Below are positions 4,186 through 42,500 of a stretch of 52,959 nucleotides of DNA, piece after piece (position 1 is the first letter of the stretch; every line of letters begins with the position of its first letter). The DNA comes from Candidatus Vecturithrix granuli. Lineage in GTDB: Bacteria; Moduliflexota; Moduliflexia; Moduliflexales; Moduliflexaceae. The stretch covers positions 1 to 52,959 of the forward strand of contig DF820479.1 in NCBI GenBank assembly GCA_000739535.1, in the 5' to 3' direction. The position numbers were made by a program, and so were the translations under genes. Below the pieces are notes generated by a model. It ran no database searches, had not been told where the DNA came from, and saw only the letters and a list, made by a program, of their open reading frames with translations.

Positions 4186-4330
4186 AGGAGTGTCAAAGCT
4201 CTGCTTTGACAGCGAAAGCAGAGCTTTCGCACTCCTCAAGCTATTCTAACAGCGAAAGCAGAGCTTTCGCACTCCTCAAGCTGTTCTAACAGCGAAAGCA
4301 GAGCTTTCGCACTCCTCAAGTTATTCTGCA
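4186..4330. repeat. Palindrome repeat R5 with 40-bp tandem triplication
   Basis: An outer stem AGGAGTG/CACTCCT (4186-4192/4230-4236) encloses two hairpins: GTCAAAGC/GCTTTGAC (4192-4199/4203-4210, loop TCT) and GCGAAAGC/GCTTTCGC (4212-4219/4223-4230, loop AGA). The two hairpin cores are reverse complements of each other. A 40-bp unit holding the second hairpin and the sequence after it is repeated three times (4211-4250, 4251-4290, 4291-4330). The copies are nearly identical. The third overlaps the stop codon of the DppD-type gene (4321-4323), so the array begins exactly at the end of that gene. In the transcript it forms serial hairpins between the two ATPase genes. Confidence 0.88.
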
Positions 4331-24307: not shown

Positions 24308-24730
24308 ATGAAAGCATGTTTTGTGCGGATATTTTTATTGGGCTGCTTGTTTACAAGTGTCATCGCCTGTAGCTCTTTAGACCCTTCCAGGCTATCTTCT
24401 TTGACTTTAGATGAAGCCAAAAGCGGCAGTATAGTTGAAATGACTGCTGGCGACGTATTCGTCATTGTTCTGGAAGGCAATCCCACAACTGGTTATACCT
24501 GGGAACTTGACACCCTTGATGCGACGATTGTGCAACAAATCGGAGAAGCGGAATTTACCCCTGAGAGCGATGCTATCGGTTCCGGCGGAAAATTTACCTT
24601 TCGTTTTCAGGCAATTTCCGCCGGTCAGAGCTTCTTGAAACTGCTCTACCATCGTCCCTGGGAACAGGGTACGCCGCCGTTGAACACCTTTGAATTGATG
24701 GTTATTGTCAAAATTCAAAACGGAGGATAG
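24308..24730 (+). CDS. Chagasin-type cysteine protease inhibitor lipoprotein (I42)
   Basis: This 140-residue protein has a lipoprotein signal peptide ending in the lipobox VIAC (Cys about 21). The mature part carries the three inhibitory loops of the I42/chagasin family: GNPTTGYTWEL, the GSGGKFTFRF segment and HRPWEQGTPP. Such proteins block papain-like cysteine proteases; a periplasmic or outer-membrane location suggests protection against host, prey or own proteases. AAGGAG lies ten bases upstream. Its 3' end overlaps the convergent barrel gene by 23 bases. Confidence 0.88.
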   Translation: MKACFVRIFLLGCLFTSVIACSSLDPSRLSSLTLDEAKSGSIVEMTAGDVFVIVLEGNPTTGYTWELDTLDATIVQQIGEAEFTPESDAIGSGGKFTFRFQAISAGQSFLKLLYHRPWEQGTPPLNTFELMVIVKIQNGG

Positions 24731-25241
24731 CTCCGAGAGTCATGGTGTTGAGTTGAATGTCTTCGTGAATTTTGCCGAATCCCCATGTTTCGGAGCGATA
24801 GTTCACGTTAATATCCAGAAAGATCGTGGGAACAATCTCAACATCCAGCCCGGCGCGCAGCCCGAAAAATGGGCTGTCTGCTGCTTTGCCGTCAGCAAAG
24901 TGCCATCCGATTCCTGCGCCAGCATAAATCCCTCGACCAACAAGCACATACACCTGCGGAGCAAACACCGCATCGTCGGATCCGGCGTAGCCATCTCCTA
25001 GAAATTCAAGCATAGCTTCAACCGTAAAAAATTTCACCATCTGGTATTGGTATGATAACAGCAAAGCCAGCCCCTCTTCATCGACGCCTTCAATAATGAT
25101 GTCTTCCAGGCTTTTCCAATAGTGAATTCCGCCCCCGAAGCGATGGACGTTTTCGAAACGACTTCCGTTCGCCGCTAAAACATCCTGCCCTGCGAAAAGC
25201 TGTATTCCCAAAATAACGAAAAGGATAGATATTTTTTTCAT
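24708..25241 (-). CDS. Outer-membrane beta-barrel protein
   Basis: This 177-residue protein has a signal peptide (cleavage near VLA-AN) and alternating amphipathic strands (YAGAGIGWHFADG, FFGLRAGLDVEIVP, TIFLDINVNYRSETW). It ends in LGAILRFEF, whose terminal Phe is the usual outer-membrane insertion signal. It looks like a small eight-strand barrel of the OmpW/OmpA type, but I cannot assign a family. The ribosome site is weak. It converges with and overlaps the chagasin-type gene. A small mobile element lies just upstream. Confidence 0.7.
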   Translation of the reverse strand: MKKISILFVILGIQLFAGQDVLAANGSRFENVHRFGGGIHYWKSLEDIIIEGVDEEGLALLLSYQYQMVKFFTVEAMLEFLGDGYAGSDDAVFAPQVYVLVGRGIYAGAGIGWHFADGKAADSPFFGLRAGLDVEIVPTIFLDINVNYRSETWGFGKIHEDIQLNTMTLGAILRFEF

Positions 25242-25253
25242 AATTCATTATCA

Positions 25254-25367
25254 GGTAGTGGTTAAATGGTAAATGATGCGTTCCCTGAGCGAAGTCGAAG
25301 GGAACAGTGAACGGCTCGTTTCGACTTCGCTCAACGAGCGGGCATCACTTACTATTTAACCACTACC
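25254..25367. mobile_element. MITE-B copy 1 with 8-bp target duplication
   Basis: This 114-base element begins GGTAGTGG and ends CCACTACC. The terminal inverted repeats extend about 26 bases (GGTAGTGGTTAAAT then TGATGC, with a few mismatches). It is flanked on both sides by CATTATCA (25246-25253 and 25368-25375), a perfect 8-bp target duplication. The interior has a hairpin around CCTGAGCGAAGTCGAAGG and a second palindrome CGACTTCGCTCAACGAGCG. There is no coding capacity, so a transposase must act in trans. The second copy is at 35289. Confidence 0.9.
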
Positions 25368-25545
25368 CATTATCAATCATTTTCTTGACTGTTGCTTAGC
25401 GAAAGCTGCCTATCTGTCCAGGCAGGCCGATATTCAACAAAAGTCAAAAAATTCTTGTTTATTTTTCATTCTCCCGATACGTTGTCATGGTTTGTCTGAT
25501 GGGTTTATAGCCCAGTTTTCAGGTAGAAACAGTTGCTAAAGCAGA

Positions 25546-33780: not shown

Positions 33781-34013
33781 CTGGCGATCAATCGCCAGTC
33801 TCAAAGTGAAAGGGCGCTGAAGTGCCCTCCAGAATTCATGAGTAGTACGGCGTTTCGGAAATAATTATACATGATCTCCGTTCGTCCTGAGCTTGTCGAA
33901 GGACACATGCTGATGTCCTTCGACAAGCTCAGGACAAACGGTGTATAGTTATTTCCGAAATCGTGTAGTAGGCTTCAGCCCGCTATGGCTTTGAGGCCGG
34001 CCATTGATGAGCG
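33781..34013. repeat. Palindrome-cluster repeat R2, interrupted
   Basis: This is a second copy of R1: hairpin CTGGCGAT/ATCGCCAG (33781-33788/33791-33798), outer arm TCTCAAAG (33799-33806), hairpin GGGCGCT/AGTGCCC (33812-33818/33821-33827), then GGCTTCAGCCCGCT, the other outer arm CTTTGAG (33989-33995) and CCGGCCATTGATG. It starts six bases after the aminotransferase stop codon. Another mobile element (33846-33967) is inserted where the second inner hairpin should be. Confidence 0.82.
33846..33967. mobile_element. MITE-A copy 1, nested in repeat R2
   Basis: This inverted-repeat element has ends TACGGCGTTTCGGAAATAA and the complement of TACACGATTTCGGAAATAA. The arms continue through TATACA and CCGTT to a central palindrome around GTCCTGAGCTTGTCGAAGGAC-type arms, so almost the whole element folds on itself. 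GTAG flanks both sides (33842-33845 and 33968-33971), compatible with a 4-bp target duplication; GTAGTA would be the alternative. There is no coding capacity. A relative lies at 39244. Confidence 0.75.
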
Positions 34014-34500: not shown

Positions 34501-35178
34501 CTACCAATCTTTAGGTAAACCGCGCAAGCTGGCGCCAGTTTTCGAATCAATCGGTAATTTCCCAAGATCTCTGACTAACAGCATCTGGTGGAATTCATAC
34601 ACGGACGCCTGCTCAATGCGCCCTTCGTCAAAACGCACGATCCAGCCAGCATTCTGCGCCTGATCGTTAACGCGGTCAGCGCTCCACACACTCTTCCCAC
34701 GAAAATTCTCGAAAGCTGGATTCAAATATAAACCAGATTGCGATGGTGTGAGTAACGACGCCAGTTCTTCGATTGTCGGCACACGCCAGTCGCGCAATCC
34801 GGCATAGCGAGCGGTGGCGACCACTTCGTTCGCTTTTTCATGCGAGGCGTACATATCCAGCCCTGCGGTCCAGACTAAATCATGGGTACAATCAACAACG
34901 ATCAGATCGCCGTCAAGGCGCATTTCATAGTAAAGATAACTCCGCTCACCACGAGGATGTAAAACCCGTTCGTAAAATCCATACTTCTTAACCATGTTCT
35001 CAATCTGACTGGAAGTCAGGGTCAGCGGAGTCGAACGTAACGGAACTTTGGGGCAGGAAGCAATCGATTCTTCTTGTGCTTTCCTGTTTACCTCTGATTG
35101 CGCTGTTGAGTCAATCCGGGTACAGTTGGCAAGAAAACTCATGAATATCAGAAGGTATGCAGTGTGTGCAATACGCAT
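34501..35178 (-). CDS. DUF1566-type lipoprotein
   Basis: This 225-residue lipoprotein has signal peptide and lipobox LANC (Cys about 20). The C-terminal half has the DUF1566/Lcl pattern: DLVWTAGLDMYASHEKANE, ARYAGLRDWRVPTIEELASL, YLNPAFENFRGKSVWSADR and AGWIVRFDEG. These domains are found in bacterial surface proteins related to collagen-like-protein-associated modules; the molecular role is unclear. The start at 35178 is chosen because AGGTG lies six bases upstream; an ATG five codons earlier lacks one. It precedes the hemerythrin gene on the same strand. Confidence 0.8.
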   Translation of the reverse strand: MRIAHTAYLLIFMSFLANCTRIDSTAQSEVNRKAQEESIASCPKVPLRSTPLTLTSSQIENMVKKYGFYERVLHPRGERSYLYYEMRLDGDLIVVDCTHDLVWTAGLDMYASHEKANEVVATARYAGLRDWRVPTIEELASLLTPSQSGLYLNPAFENFRGKSVWSADRVNDQAQNAGWIVRFDEGRIEQASVYEFHQMLLVRDLGKLPIDSKTGASLRGLPKDW

Positions 35179-35288
35179 AAAAACACCTCTCATTTTTATT
35201 CACCTTATTGAAAATCTTCTTGAATAGCAAAGGGCTGGTTGTCAATAATATTTTGACATTTTCTTGTCTGAATCACAGACAAAATTTG

Positions 35289-35403
35289 GGTAGTGGTATC
35301 CTGTACATGATGCACGTTCCCTGAGCGAAGTCGAAGGGAACGCCTGCGTGTTCGTCTCGACTCCGCTCGACGACCGGTCATCATGTACAAGGTAGCCACT
35401 ACC
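35289..35403. mobile_element. MITE-B copy 2 with 8-bp target duplication
   Basis: This 115-base element begins GGTAGTGG and ends CCACTACC and is flanked on both sides by AAAATTTG (35281-35288 and 35404-35411), a perfect 8-bp target duplication different from that of copy 1. The inner arms (TGTACATGATG and complement) differ from copy 1, but the central CCTGAGCGAAGTCGAAGG hairpin is identical. It sits upstream of the DUF1566 lipoprotein gene. Confidence 0.9.
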
Positions 35404-35451
35404 AAAATTTGAAAGTTTTTGGTAAAAGTATAATTTTTGTAAAAAATCCCC

Positions 35452-39016: not shown

Positions 39017-39100
39017 AACTACAAAGGTCTCAGATTTCCCAGATTTGGAGTAACGTGAGTATGCTCATTCGAGAAATTTGTCAAATTTGTGGCTAATTTT

Positions 39101-39238
39101 ACTTTGTCAAGTTTGTGAAACTACACGGAGAAGAGATAAGAAAAGGATGTTCTGGGAAAATTGCTCACCCCCCAGTATCCTGTTCTTATCTCTTCTCCGT
39201 GTAGTTATCCATGGTGCAAGAAGTGAACTTGACAAAGT
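39101..39238. repeat. Long-hairpin element C
   Basis: Terminal arms ACTTTGTCAAGTT (39101-39113) and AACTTGACAAAGT (39226-39238) enclose a perfect 24-bp stem (39119-39142/39183-39206, beginning AACTACACGGAGAAGA). Two inner stems follow, AGGAT/ATCCT (39144-39148/39177-39181) and CTGGG/CCCAG (39152-39156/39171-39175). No target duplication is obvious. It has no coding capacity and resembles a non-autonomous mobile element or a very stable RNA hairpin. Confidence 0.75.
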
Positions 39239-39243
39239 AGAAT

Positions 39244-39344
39244 TACATGATTTCGGAAATAAGTACACATGAAACGCGACGAAGAAACCAGGATTTTTCC
39301 TAAAAACCTGGTTTATCGGGTAGAGTTATTTCTGAAATCATGCA
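39244..39344. mobile_element. MITE-A copy 2
   Basis: Ends TACATGATTTCGGAAATAA and the complement of TGCATGATTTCAGAAATAA (39244-39262/39326-39344), matching the ends of the element at 33846. The interior differs, with a palindrome AAACCAGG/CCTGGTTT (39286-39314). I see no target duplication. It lies six bases after element C, in the 555-base gap before the giant gene; the rest of that gap to 39544 shows no supported gene. Confidence 0.65.
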
Positions 39345-39571: not shown

Positions 39572-42500
39572 ATGAACAAGAACACCTATTCTTTGCGCAC
39601 CATTATTGCCGTTACGGCGGCAGCTCTGATGTATCTGGCCGTTGTGAGCCTGCTTTCTCAAAGATCCGGAATTCTGGCGTCTGAATCCGTTGCAAAGCCG
39701 ACCGTCATGCTGCTGGCCGTCGTTCCGGATTGCGAGTCTCAGGGGAAAGTCACGATTTGTCATAACCCGAACAATAATCCTCCGGGCGTTGAAATCTGCG
39801 TGGCGCCCCAGGCGGTTGAAGCACATTTGCGTAATAATGCCCGGCTGGGCGACTATTTAGGCCCCTGTCAGCCCTCCACACCCACGCCCACGCCTGAACC
39901 CGCAGAAACGCCAACCGCTACGCCGACACCTGCACCCGGGATCACCCCAACCGCTACGCCGACGCCTGCGCCCGGGATCACCCCAACTGCTACGCCGACG
40001 CCTGCACCCGGGATCACCCCAACCGCTACGCCGACACCTGCCCCCGGGATCACCCCAACCGCTACGCCGACACCTGCACCCGGGATCACCCCAACCGCTA
40101 CGCCGACACCTGCACCCGGGATCACCCCAACCGCTACGCCGACGCCTGCCCCCGGGATCACCCCAACCGCTACGCCGACGCCTGTACCCGAAGCGCGACT
40201 GGTAGATGTGATCGCTCCACAGCCGCAGCCAGGAGCCTGGGGCGCAACGCTTAGTTATACCTTTCAGGTAATCAATCAGGGCAATGTAGAAGATACGTTT
40301 CGTCTGACCTTAGAGGCCGAATACAATCTGTCAACCGGGCGTATCCCTTCGCAAATCCGCCTGGCCCCTGGTGCGACAACCGCTATAACCACCTCACTGA
40401 CATTACCACTGACAGGGACATTCCCCTCTATAGGCCTGACCCTGACCGCAGTTTCGACCTCCGATGCGTCCGTCGTCGATTCCGATACCGTAATCACATC
40501 ACTTGCCCCTCCGGCCCCGGCGCTTGAATTGACCAAAACCGCGGATAAACAGGTGCTTGCTCCCGGGGAACAGGTCAAATATACCTTACGTTATCGCAAT
40601 ATTGGCAACGTGCCTCTGCAAAATCTCGCGCTCGAAGATGCGCTGCCGGCCCAACTGCACTTTGTTGAAAGTTCGCTGCCGATTCAGATGACAAATGAAA
40701 ACAGGGTACGCATCCTTTTAGAACCGCTGCTGTTGCAGAATCAAGGCGGAACCGTCAGTATCACCGCGCGGGTTGCTGAGGACGTTGATCTGCGAGGATC
40801 AATTGTGAATACGGCCGTATTGAGCGCTGATGGCCTCCCGCAGCCAGTAACCGCTCAGGCGCGATCCTCCATCGAAGTCCCCAAATTGCTGATTCAAAAA
40901 TCGGTCAATAAGACGGAAGTGTCCACCGGCGATATTCTGCTCTATACCATCACCATCAGCAACACCGGCAACGGCACTGCCCGCGAGGTTACAGTGCTTG
41001 ACTCGCTGCCCTCTGTTTTGCGCTATGTTGTTGGTTCAGCGGTGCTCAATGCGATGCGTACGGAGAATCCGGAAACCCGGACTGAGAGTCAGTATGTCTG
41101 GAATCTCGGAGACCTTCGCCCCGGCGATGACATAATTCTGCGTTACCAGGCAACCGTGATGACAGGCGCGAAATCCGGCACCTACAAAAATAAGGCCCTG
41201 GCGCGAGCGCAAGACAGCAGCGGACGAACCCTCTCGACCGGCCCCGCCAGCGTGAGTATTCGTATTGAAAAGGGAATACACACTTTTCCGGCCGAAATTC
41301 ACGGCCTGGTGTTCGAAGACCAAAATGGCGACGGCTCTCATGACGCCGGCGAACCAGGAATTCCGCAAGTTGATGTGCTCTGGATTAGAGGACGGGAAAC
41401 TCAGGCCACAGATGAAGACGGCGAGTTCTTCTTCCGCGATGTGGACCCCGGGCCCCAGGCGATTGGTTTATATGAAACCAGTCTGCCTGAAGGCTATCGT
41501 CTGACCACTGAATCAACGGTCATGCTCACCGCCAATGAAGGCGCAATTGAATATGTTGAATTCGGCGTACAGTCCGATCGCGCTGAACTCACGGCCGTGG
41601 TCTATCATGACCTGAATCGCAACAGCCTCTATGACGACGGCGAACCGGGCATCGAAGGCGTGCAACTGCGCGTGGATGACGTGCTGCGTCTTGACGACCT
41701 GTTCAGCATGACCACGAATAGCGAGGGCAAAGCGATTGCACAAGCCCTCCCACCAAGTTCATTTTCCTTGATTTGTGATGTGCAAACTCTGCCGCCGCAA
41801 TTTGTTTTAACGACAAGTGTGTCTGTTCCTGTCACCCTGGCTGCCAGAGAATCGCAAACCGTCTATTTTGCTGCCGCGCACAAACCCGGAACGATCCGCG
41901 GCGCAGTTTTCCGCGATCTGAACGAAAATGGCCGTGTGGATTCGAATGAGCAGGGCGAACCCACTATTACACTGAGCTTGACGGATGGCAGCCGGCGCGA
42001 GACCCTGACGAACGATGTGGGGCAATATGCCTTTGAAACGCTTGATCCCGGAATTTATACGCTGCAACTGCCCACGCATGCGTTACCGCTCAATTCGTAT
42101 CTGACTGTAAATCCGGTGCAGAGCGTGCTGGTCGAACCAGGTCAGGAATACATCATCAATTGGGGTCTTGCCGTACGGACAGTTCCGGAAATGACTCCGA
42201 CCCCAACCGAAACGCCGACAGCCATCGTTCCGAGTCCGACTATCAGTCCGACTGCCAGTCCGACCAGTCCGCCTATTACTCCGACTCCAACGCCGACTAC
42301 TGCCCCAACCCCTGAAATAGCAGAAGATTTCTGCGTCTATACCGTCAAATCCGGGGACACGCTTTCGCGCATTGCCGCGCAGTTCACCGGCAAAGCCGGC
42401 AACTATCAGAAAATTATGGTGTTCAATGCCTTGAGTTCTGACGCCATCCGGATCGGCGACTCCTTGAAAATTCCAACCACGTTGTTATTAGAGCAATATC

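Follow-up and report, generated by a model that had tools for sequence, protein, structure and literature searches.

Prokaryotic MITEs have been reviewed as a group (PMC10969869). Examples are the Sulfolobus MITEs SM3A and SMN1, for whose movement a transposase must be provided in trans (PMC3718332). Paired REP hairpins, designated REPINs, are a second kind of short repeat that has to be considered here (PMC3116915). The repeats described below come from UASB270, Candidatus Vecturithrix (printed Vecturathrix) granuli of the phylum KSB3/Modulibacteria, for which a GC content of 47.2% and an N50 of 597,372 were reported (PMC4312070). The assembly that we searched comprises 8,384,694 bases in 21 contigs and is interrupted by N gaps, several of which fall within repeats. 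The GC content of the first 1.0 Mb of its contig C21 is 47.1%.

Two elements in the window

The window, by which we mean the whole stretch of 52,959 nucleotides that was analysed, contains a 114-bp element at 25254–25367 (copy 1) and a 115-bp element at 35289–35403 (copy 2), both on the plus strand, which we assign to two subfamilies of an IS1-type MITE. The initial annotation had described both, giving copy 1 as 25246–25375, a range that corresponds to the element plus its target-site duplications (TSDs), and its description holds for the two copies. Each is bounded by its own exact 8-bp direct repeat, which is CATTATCA at 25246–25253 and 25368–25375 for copy 1 and AAAATTTG at 35281–35288 and 35404–35411 for copy 2. 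The ends GGTAGTGG/CCACTACC are shared, and so is the central hairpin, an exact 26-bp GTTCCCTGAGCGAAGTCGAAGGGAAC.

Both copies are built from 26-bp outer arms that flank two hairpins in inverted order. In copy 1, the left terminal inverted repeat (TIR) GGTAGTGGTTAAATGGTAAATGATGC (25254–25279, plus strand) is followed by core hairpin 1, GTTCCCTGAGCGAAGTCGAAGGGAAC (25280–25305, plus strand), the inverted core hairpin 2, GCTCGTTTCGACTTCGCTCAACGAGC (25314–25339, plus strand), and the right TIR (25342–25367, minus strand), which is complementary to the left one at 24 of 26 positions. Core hairpin 1 of copy 2 (35316–35341, plus strand) is identical to 25280–25305, and its inverted core hairpin 2, GTTCGTCTCGACTCCGCTCGACGACC (35350–35375, plus strand), has diverged. 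The single-strand minimum free energies of the two elements lie far below those of shuffled sequences (z = −12.3 and −8.2), and the predicted lowest-energy fold of both is a single long hairpin, with the inner hairpins paired to each other. Within the window, the core with up to two mismatches occurs only in these elements and at a single further site, within an ORF at 35022, and a search with the core 17-mer gave three matches versus 0.19 expected. A minus-strand ORF (24708–25241) has its start codon 4 bp downstream of the left duplication of copy 1, and the insertion may therefore affect this gene.

Several other repeats are present in the window. At 33862–33965, an inverted repeat TTTCGGAAATAA..TATACA surrounds a hairpin CCGTTCGTCCTGAGCTTGTCGAAGGACA, and its arm sequence occurs again at 39244–39269. 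The core-related hairpin in this region (33878–33941), which has a shorter spacer, is probably the element named MITE-A in the initial annotation. Nested inverted repeats at 39094–39245, with TAATTTTACTTTGTCAAGTT arms outside AACTACACGGAGAAGAGATAAGAA arms, make up a further MITE-like element. Three 40-bp tandem units with the hairpin AAAGCAGAGCTTTCGCACTCC are located at 4201–4327; a related hairpin is found in an element at C21:715656, where it is seemingly nested in an IS1-type end. Tandem repeats of 36 bases, eight overlapping copies in register, occupy 39837–40232.

A genome-wide family with two subfamilies

When the genome was searched for the paired ends, as the initial annotation had proposed, 72 exact-ended copies were obtained, and the reversed-pattern control gave none. 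From selected loci and the whole of contig C21, 86 copies were collected, so that the family has at least 86 members. They are 110–117 bp long and have no transposase ORF. An exact 8-bp TSD is present in 58 of the 82 copies with readable flanks; seven more match at 7 of 8 positions and 17 at six or fewer. The chance of an 8/8 match is 0.11%, as estimated from pairs in which the left and right flanks were taken from different copies. No match reached 9 bp in the first set of 31 copies. The 58 exact duplications represent 55 different sequences, and their positions 2–7 are 79–88% A+T, compared with 63% in the nearby flank. All 20 copies on C21, a 1.15-Mb contig of which ORFs cover 85%, are intergenic. 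Being short and multi-copy, with TIRs and TSDs, these repeats have the features of MITEs, which are non-autonomous DNA elements, and the non-autonomous transposition with an 8-bp TSD that had been claimed for two copies is borne out on 86. Matching flanks are missing at several well-preserved copies (L059, L073, L064, L116, and L067), for which recombination between copies or assembly joins could be responsible. No copies of the family were found in relatives of the same family and order.

For the inner arms, the initial annotation had offered two options, namely different subfamilies or conversion between the arms. The former is correct: the 114-bp and 115-bp types form two clusters that have the core hairpin in common and not the inner arm. 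The 115-bp type (n = 27) shows a mean of 2.0 differing bases per pair (1.7% divergence) and 56 identical pairs, which indicates a recent burst. The mean for the 114-bp type (n = 49) is 9.2 differences, a value that is too high because at least one copy entered the comparison in the wrong orientation (maximum 60).

The latter option was supported only in part. Template switching in quasi-palindromes is the favoured candidate mechanism for arm conversion. In the 114-bp type, a few pairs of positions (10/105, 11/104, and 12/103) have changed in both arms (A-T to C-G, T-A to G-C). In addition, the two arms within a copy agree better with each other than do arms taken from different copies (16.4 versus 15.9 of 18), and none of 5,000 permutations was as high, although the permutation takes no account of the kinship of the copies. 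However, seven copies of this type are half-changed at 12/103, no compensated pair is present in the 115-bp type, and no Rfam family matches the elements. Because of the half-changed copies, the uncontrolled descent, and the lack of compensation in the 115-bp type, it appears possible but rather unlikely that, on top of IS1-type mobility, the complementarity of the inner arms is kept by structural selection or by arm-to-arm templated repair.

The probable IS1-family parent and other candidate movers

A 25-base TIR pattern was scanned over 84,980 species genomes. Its only matches were at three loci, distributed over two Anaerolineae MAGs, and each of these loci is an end of an IS1-type element. 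They include a full-length IS of the kind that the initial annotation had envisaged, with matching ends and a duplication of 8 bp. The complete element (L045:1–784) is 784 bp long and has a single ORF of 246 aa, which scores 179.9 bits against the NCBIfam IS1 transposase model NF033558 (cut-off 100) and 76.2 bits against Pfam DDE_Tnp_IS1. The closest plasmid-borne protein matches of this transposase are ISSru3 and ISSru2 of Salinibacter ruber (~50% identity). One end of the element, GGTAGTGGTTACATAGTAAGTGATGC, is identical at 26 of 26 positions to the right ends of two MITE copies (L003 and L034), and the left TIR of the 114-bp subfamily shows a median identity of 24/26 to one of its ends. The left end of the 115-bp subfamily shares GGTAGTGG with the L045 end and matches poorly beyond it (about 12/26); for this subfamily, a search of viral contigs yielded no full-length partner. 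A contig of the same MAG (L046) overlaps that of L045 at 141 of 141 positions, with the 8-bp flank AAAACTTT on both sides of the IS1; the two contigs probably represent one insertion. A second IS1 element (L044:6410–7199, 790 bp) has the same end and lies between two AAACAAGT flanks, an additional G preceding the element. IS1 is characterized by an 8–9-bp duplication at an AT-rich target; the MITEs have AT-rich targets and duplications of 8 bp, and the TSD at L045/L046 has the same length.

From the 26/26 end identity and the 8-bp duplication at a complete IS1, we infer with a probability of roughly 93% that the window elements are MITEs mobilised in trans by an IS1-family transposase and carrying inverted REP-like hairpins. 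An IS1-family transposase acting in trans would recognise the GGTAGTGG... inverted repeats, insertion into an AT-rich target would proceed with a stagger of 8 bp, and the filling of the gap by host repair would generate the 8-bp duplication. The interior consists of a pair of inverted REP-like hairpins, not of IS1 sequence. This model builds on what was observed, namely the number of copies, their TSDs and target preference, their position between genes, and the identity of their ends with IS1-family elements elsewhere. The trans-acting transposase, which is absent from the assembly, would contribute the cut-and-join chemistry, and the hairpin pair would have been captured from another repeat.

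The sole IS1 transposase in the Vecturithrix assembly is broken by a stop codon, and the subterminal sequence of this IS1 differs from that of the MITEs. It starts with GGTAGTGGGTCAAAT and has a matching end GGTAATGGGTTAAAT beyond an N gap, and these ends are related, but not identical, to the MITE ends. No intact cognate IS1 was found in the gapped assembly, and the collapse of IS copies into N gaps is a plausible explanation for this absence. IS1595 was also considered as the parent and was rejected, with 0 matches to PF12762 in the genome. The two Anaerolineae genomes with IS1 elements contain no MITE of this kind, and the TIRs of either subfamily had no matches in viral contigs. We found no paper on an IS1-derived MITE like this one in the literature searched, which is weak evidence of absence.

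The missing cognate transposase leaves room for another DDE family with 8-bp duplications (IS1595, IS6, IS256, or ISKra4), in which case the likeness to IS1 ends would be convergent. Several transposase families make 8-bp duplications with ends starting GG. We nevertheless regard such a mover as very improbable, given the identity over 26 of 26 bases with an IS1-family element that is itself bounded by an 8-bp TSD and given a genome that lacks an IS1595 transposase. Least probable of all is that the elements are REPINs moved by RAYT (a Y1 tyrosine transposase) with incidental 8-bp repeats. The two inverted hairpins with a short spacer do resemble REPINs, the genome has 12 Y1-transposase domain matches, and copies of the core that lack IS1 ends or form a tandem array are also present. 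However, exact TSDs in 58 of 82 copies refute RAYT movement of the whole element, since elements of the RAYT or IS200 type are not known to duplicate their target, and core hairpins lie within 1.5 kb of only one of the 12 Y1 loci (L157), where they belong to an IS1-type MITE. None of these 12 loci has a RAYT gene flanked by the core hairpin. For the core hairpin itself, RAYT would be a candidate mover at an earlier stage.

The hairpin core and comparison with known systems

The initial annotation recorded an impression that this core recurs in unrelated genomes, which proved correct. Of 58 genomes sampled, two contain the exact 17-mer, and the 18-mer is present in 19 of 120 genomes from the class to which one Anaerolineae MAG belongs (control 0). 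The core was also found in 90 stretches of viral contigs (reversed sequence 0). Because a GGTARTGG end is absent from the 45 bases upstream of the core at all 86 viral sites read, the spread of the core is left unexplained by the IS1 ends. On C21, 25 of the 59 core sites (TGAGC[GA][AG]AGTCGA) have no IS1-type end nearby, and most of these sit in a TATAGC.ATCCTAAATCA...TGATTTAGGAT.GCTATA repeat or in a 53-bp tandem array. The former is a second MITE-like family with the same core (C21:535443, 547924, 597664, 948657, and 781084); its ends differ from those of IS1, which suggests that it may be moved by another transposase family. The latter (C21:998563–999016) consists of 53-bp units of the inverted core pair and runs into an N gap.

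Conversely, elements on C21 with GGTARTGG ends and 8-bp duplications but other lengths carry different hairpin arrays. They are located at C21:814645 (183 bp, TGAATTTT), C21:169907 (470 bp, GCCTTGTT), and C21:901271 (380 bp, GAATTTTG), the last two lengths being estimates because both elements contain N gaps.

The core looks like a REP-like module that has been captured by MITEs and is separable from the IS1 ends. A bolder proposal, which we hold only tentatively and consider somewhat doubtful, is that the pair of hairpins containing the core CTGAGCGAAGTCGAAGG forms an independent mobile module, which spreads across phyla and phages and repeatedly lodges in MITEs of unrelated transposition systems, by which it is then multiplied. 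No paper containing the core sequence was found in the literature searched, again weak evidence of absence. It is well supported that the window elements are of an ordinary kind, an IS1-type MITE family, with an unusual and widely shared central hairpin. The most likely transposition system of these repeats is thereby settled, and a defined family, with a recent burst and 8-bp TSDs, is available in a little-studied phylum. One hairpin core is common to repeat families with unrelated ends, to many genomes, and to viruses, and the spread of a REP-like core may therefore be testable with MITEs as carriers.

The window elements share features with three known systems. Like REPINs and REP doublets (PMC3116915), they have two imperfect hairpins in inverted order, separated by a short spacer, in intergenic positions, and a tandem array is also present in this genome; unlike REPINs, their hairpins are enclosed in IS1-type ends with an 8-bp TSD, and no hairpin-flanked RAYT gene was found. 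With the IS1 family they share TIRs starting GGTAGTGG/GGTAATGG and 8-bp duplications, whereas they lack a transposase gene and have an interior of hairpins instead of IS1 sequence. Prokaryotic MITEs such as SM3A and SMN1 resemble them in being short, ORF-less, intergenic, and multi-copy, with TIRs and short direct repeats. In contrast to SM3A and SMN1, the parent IS is a different one, and the same set of ends encloses several hairpin interiors that are unrelated to one another.
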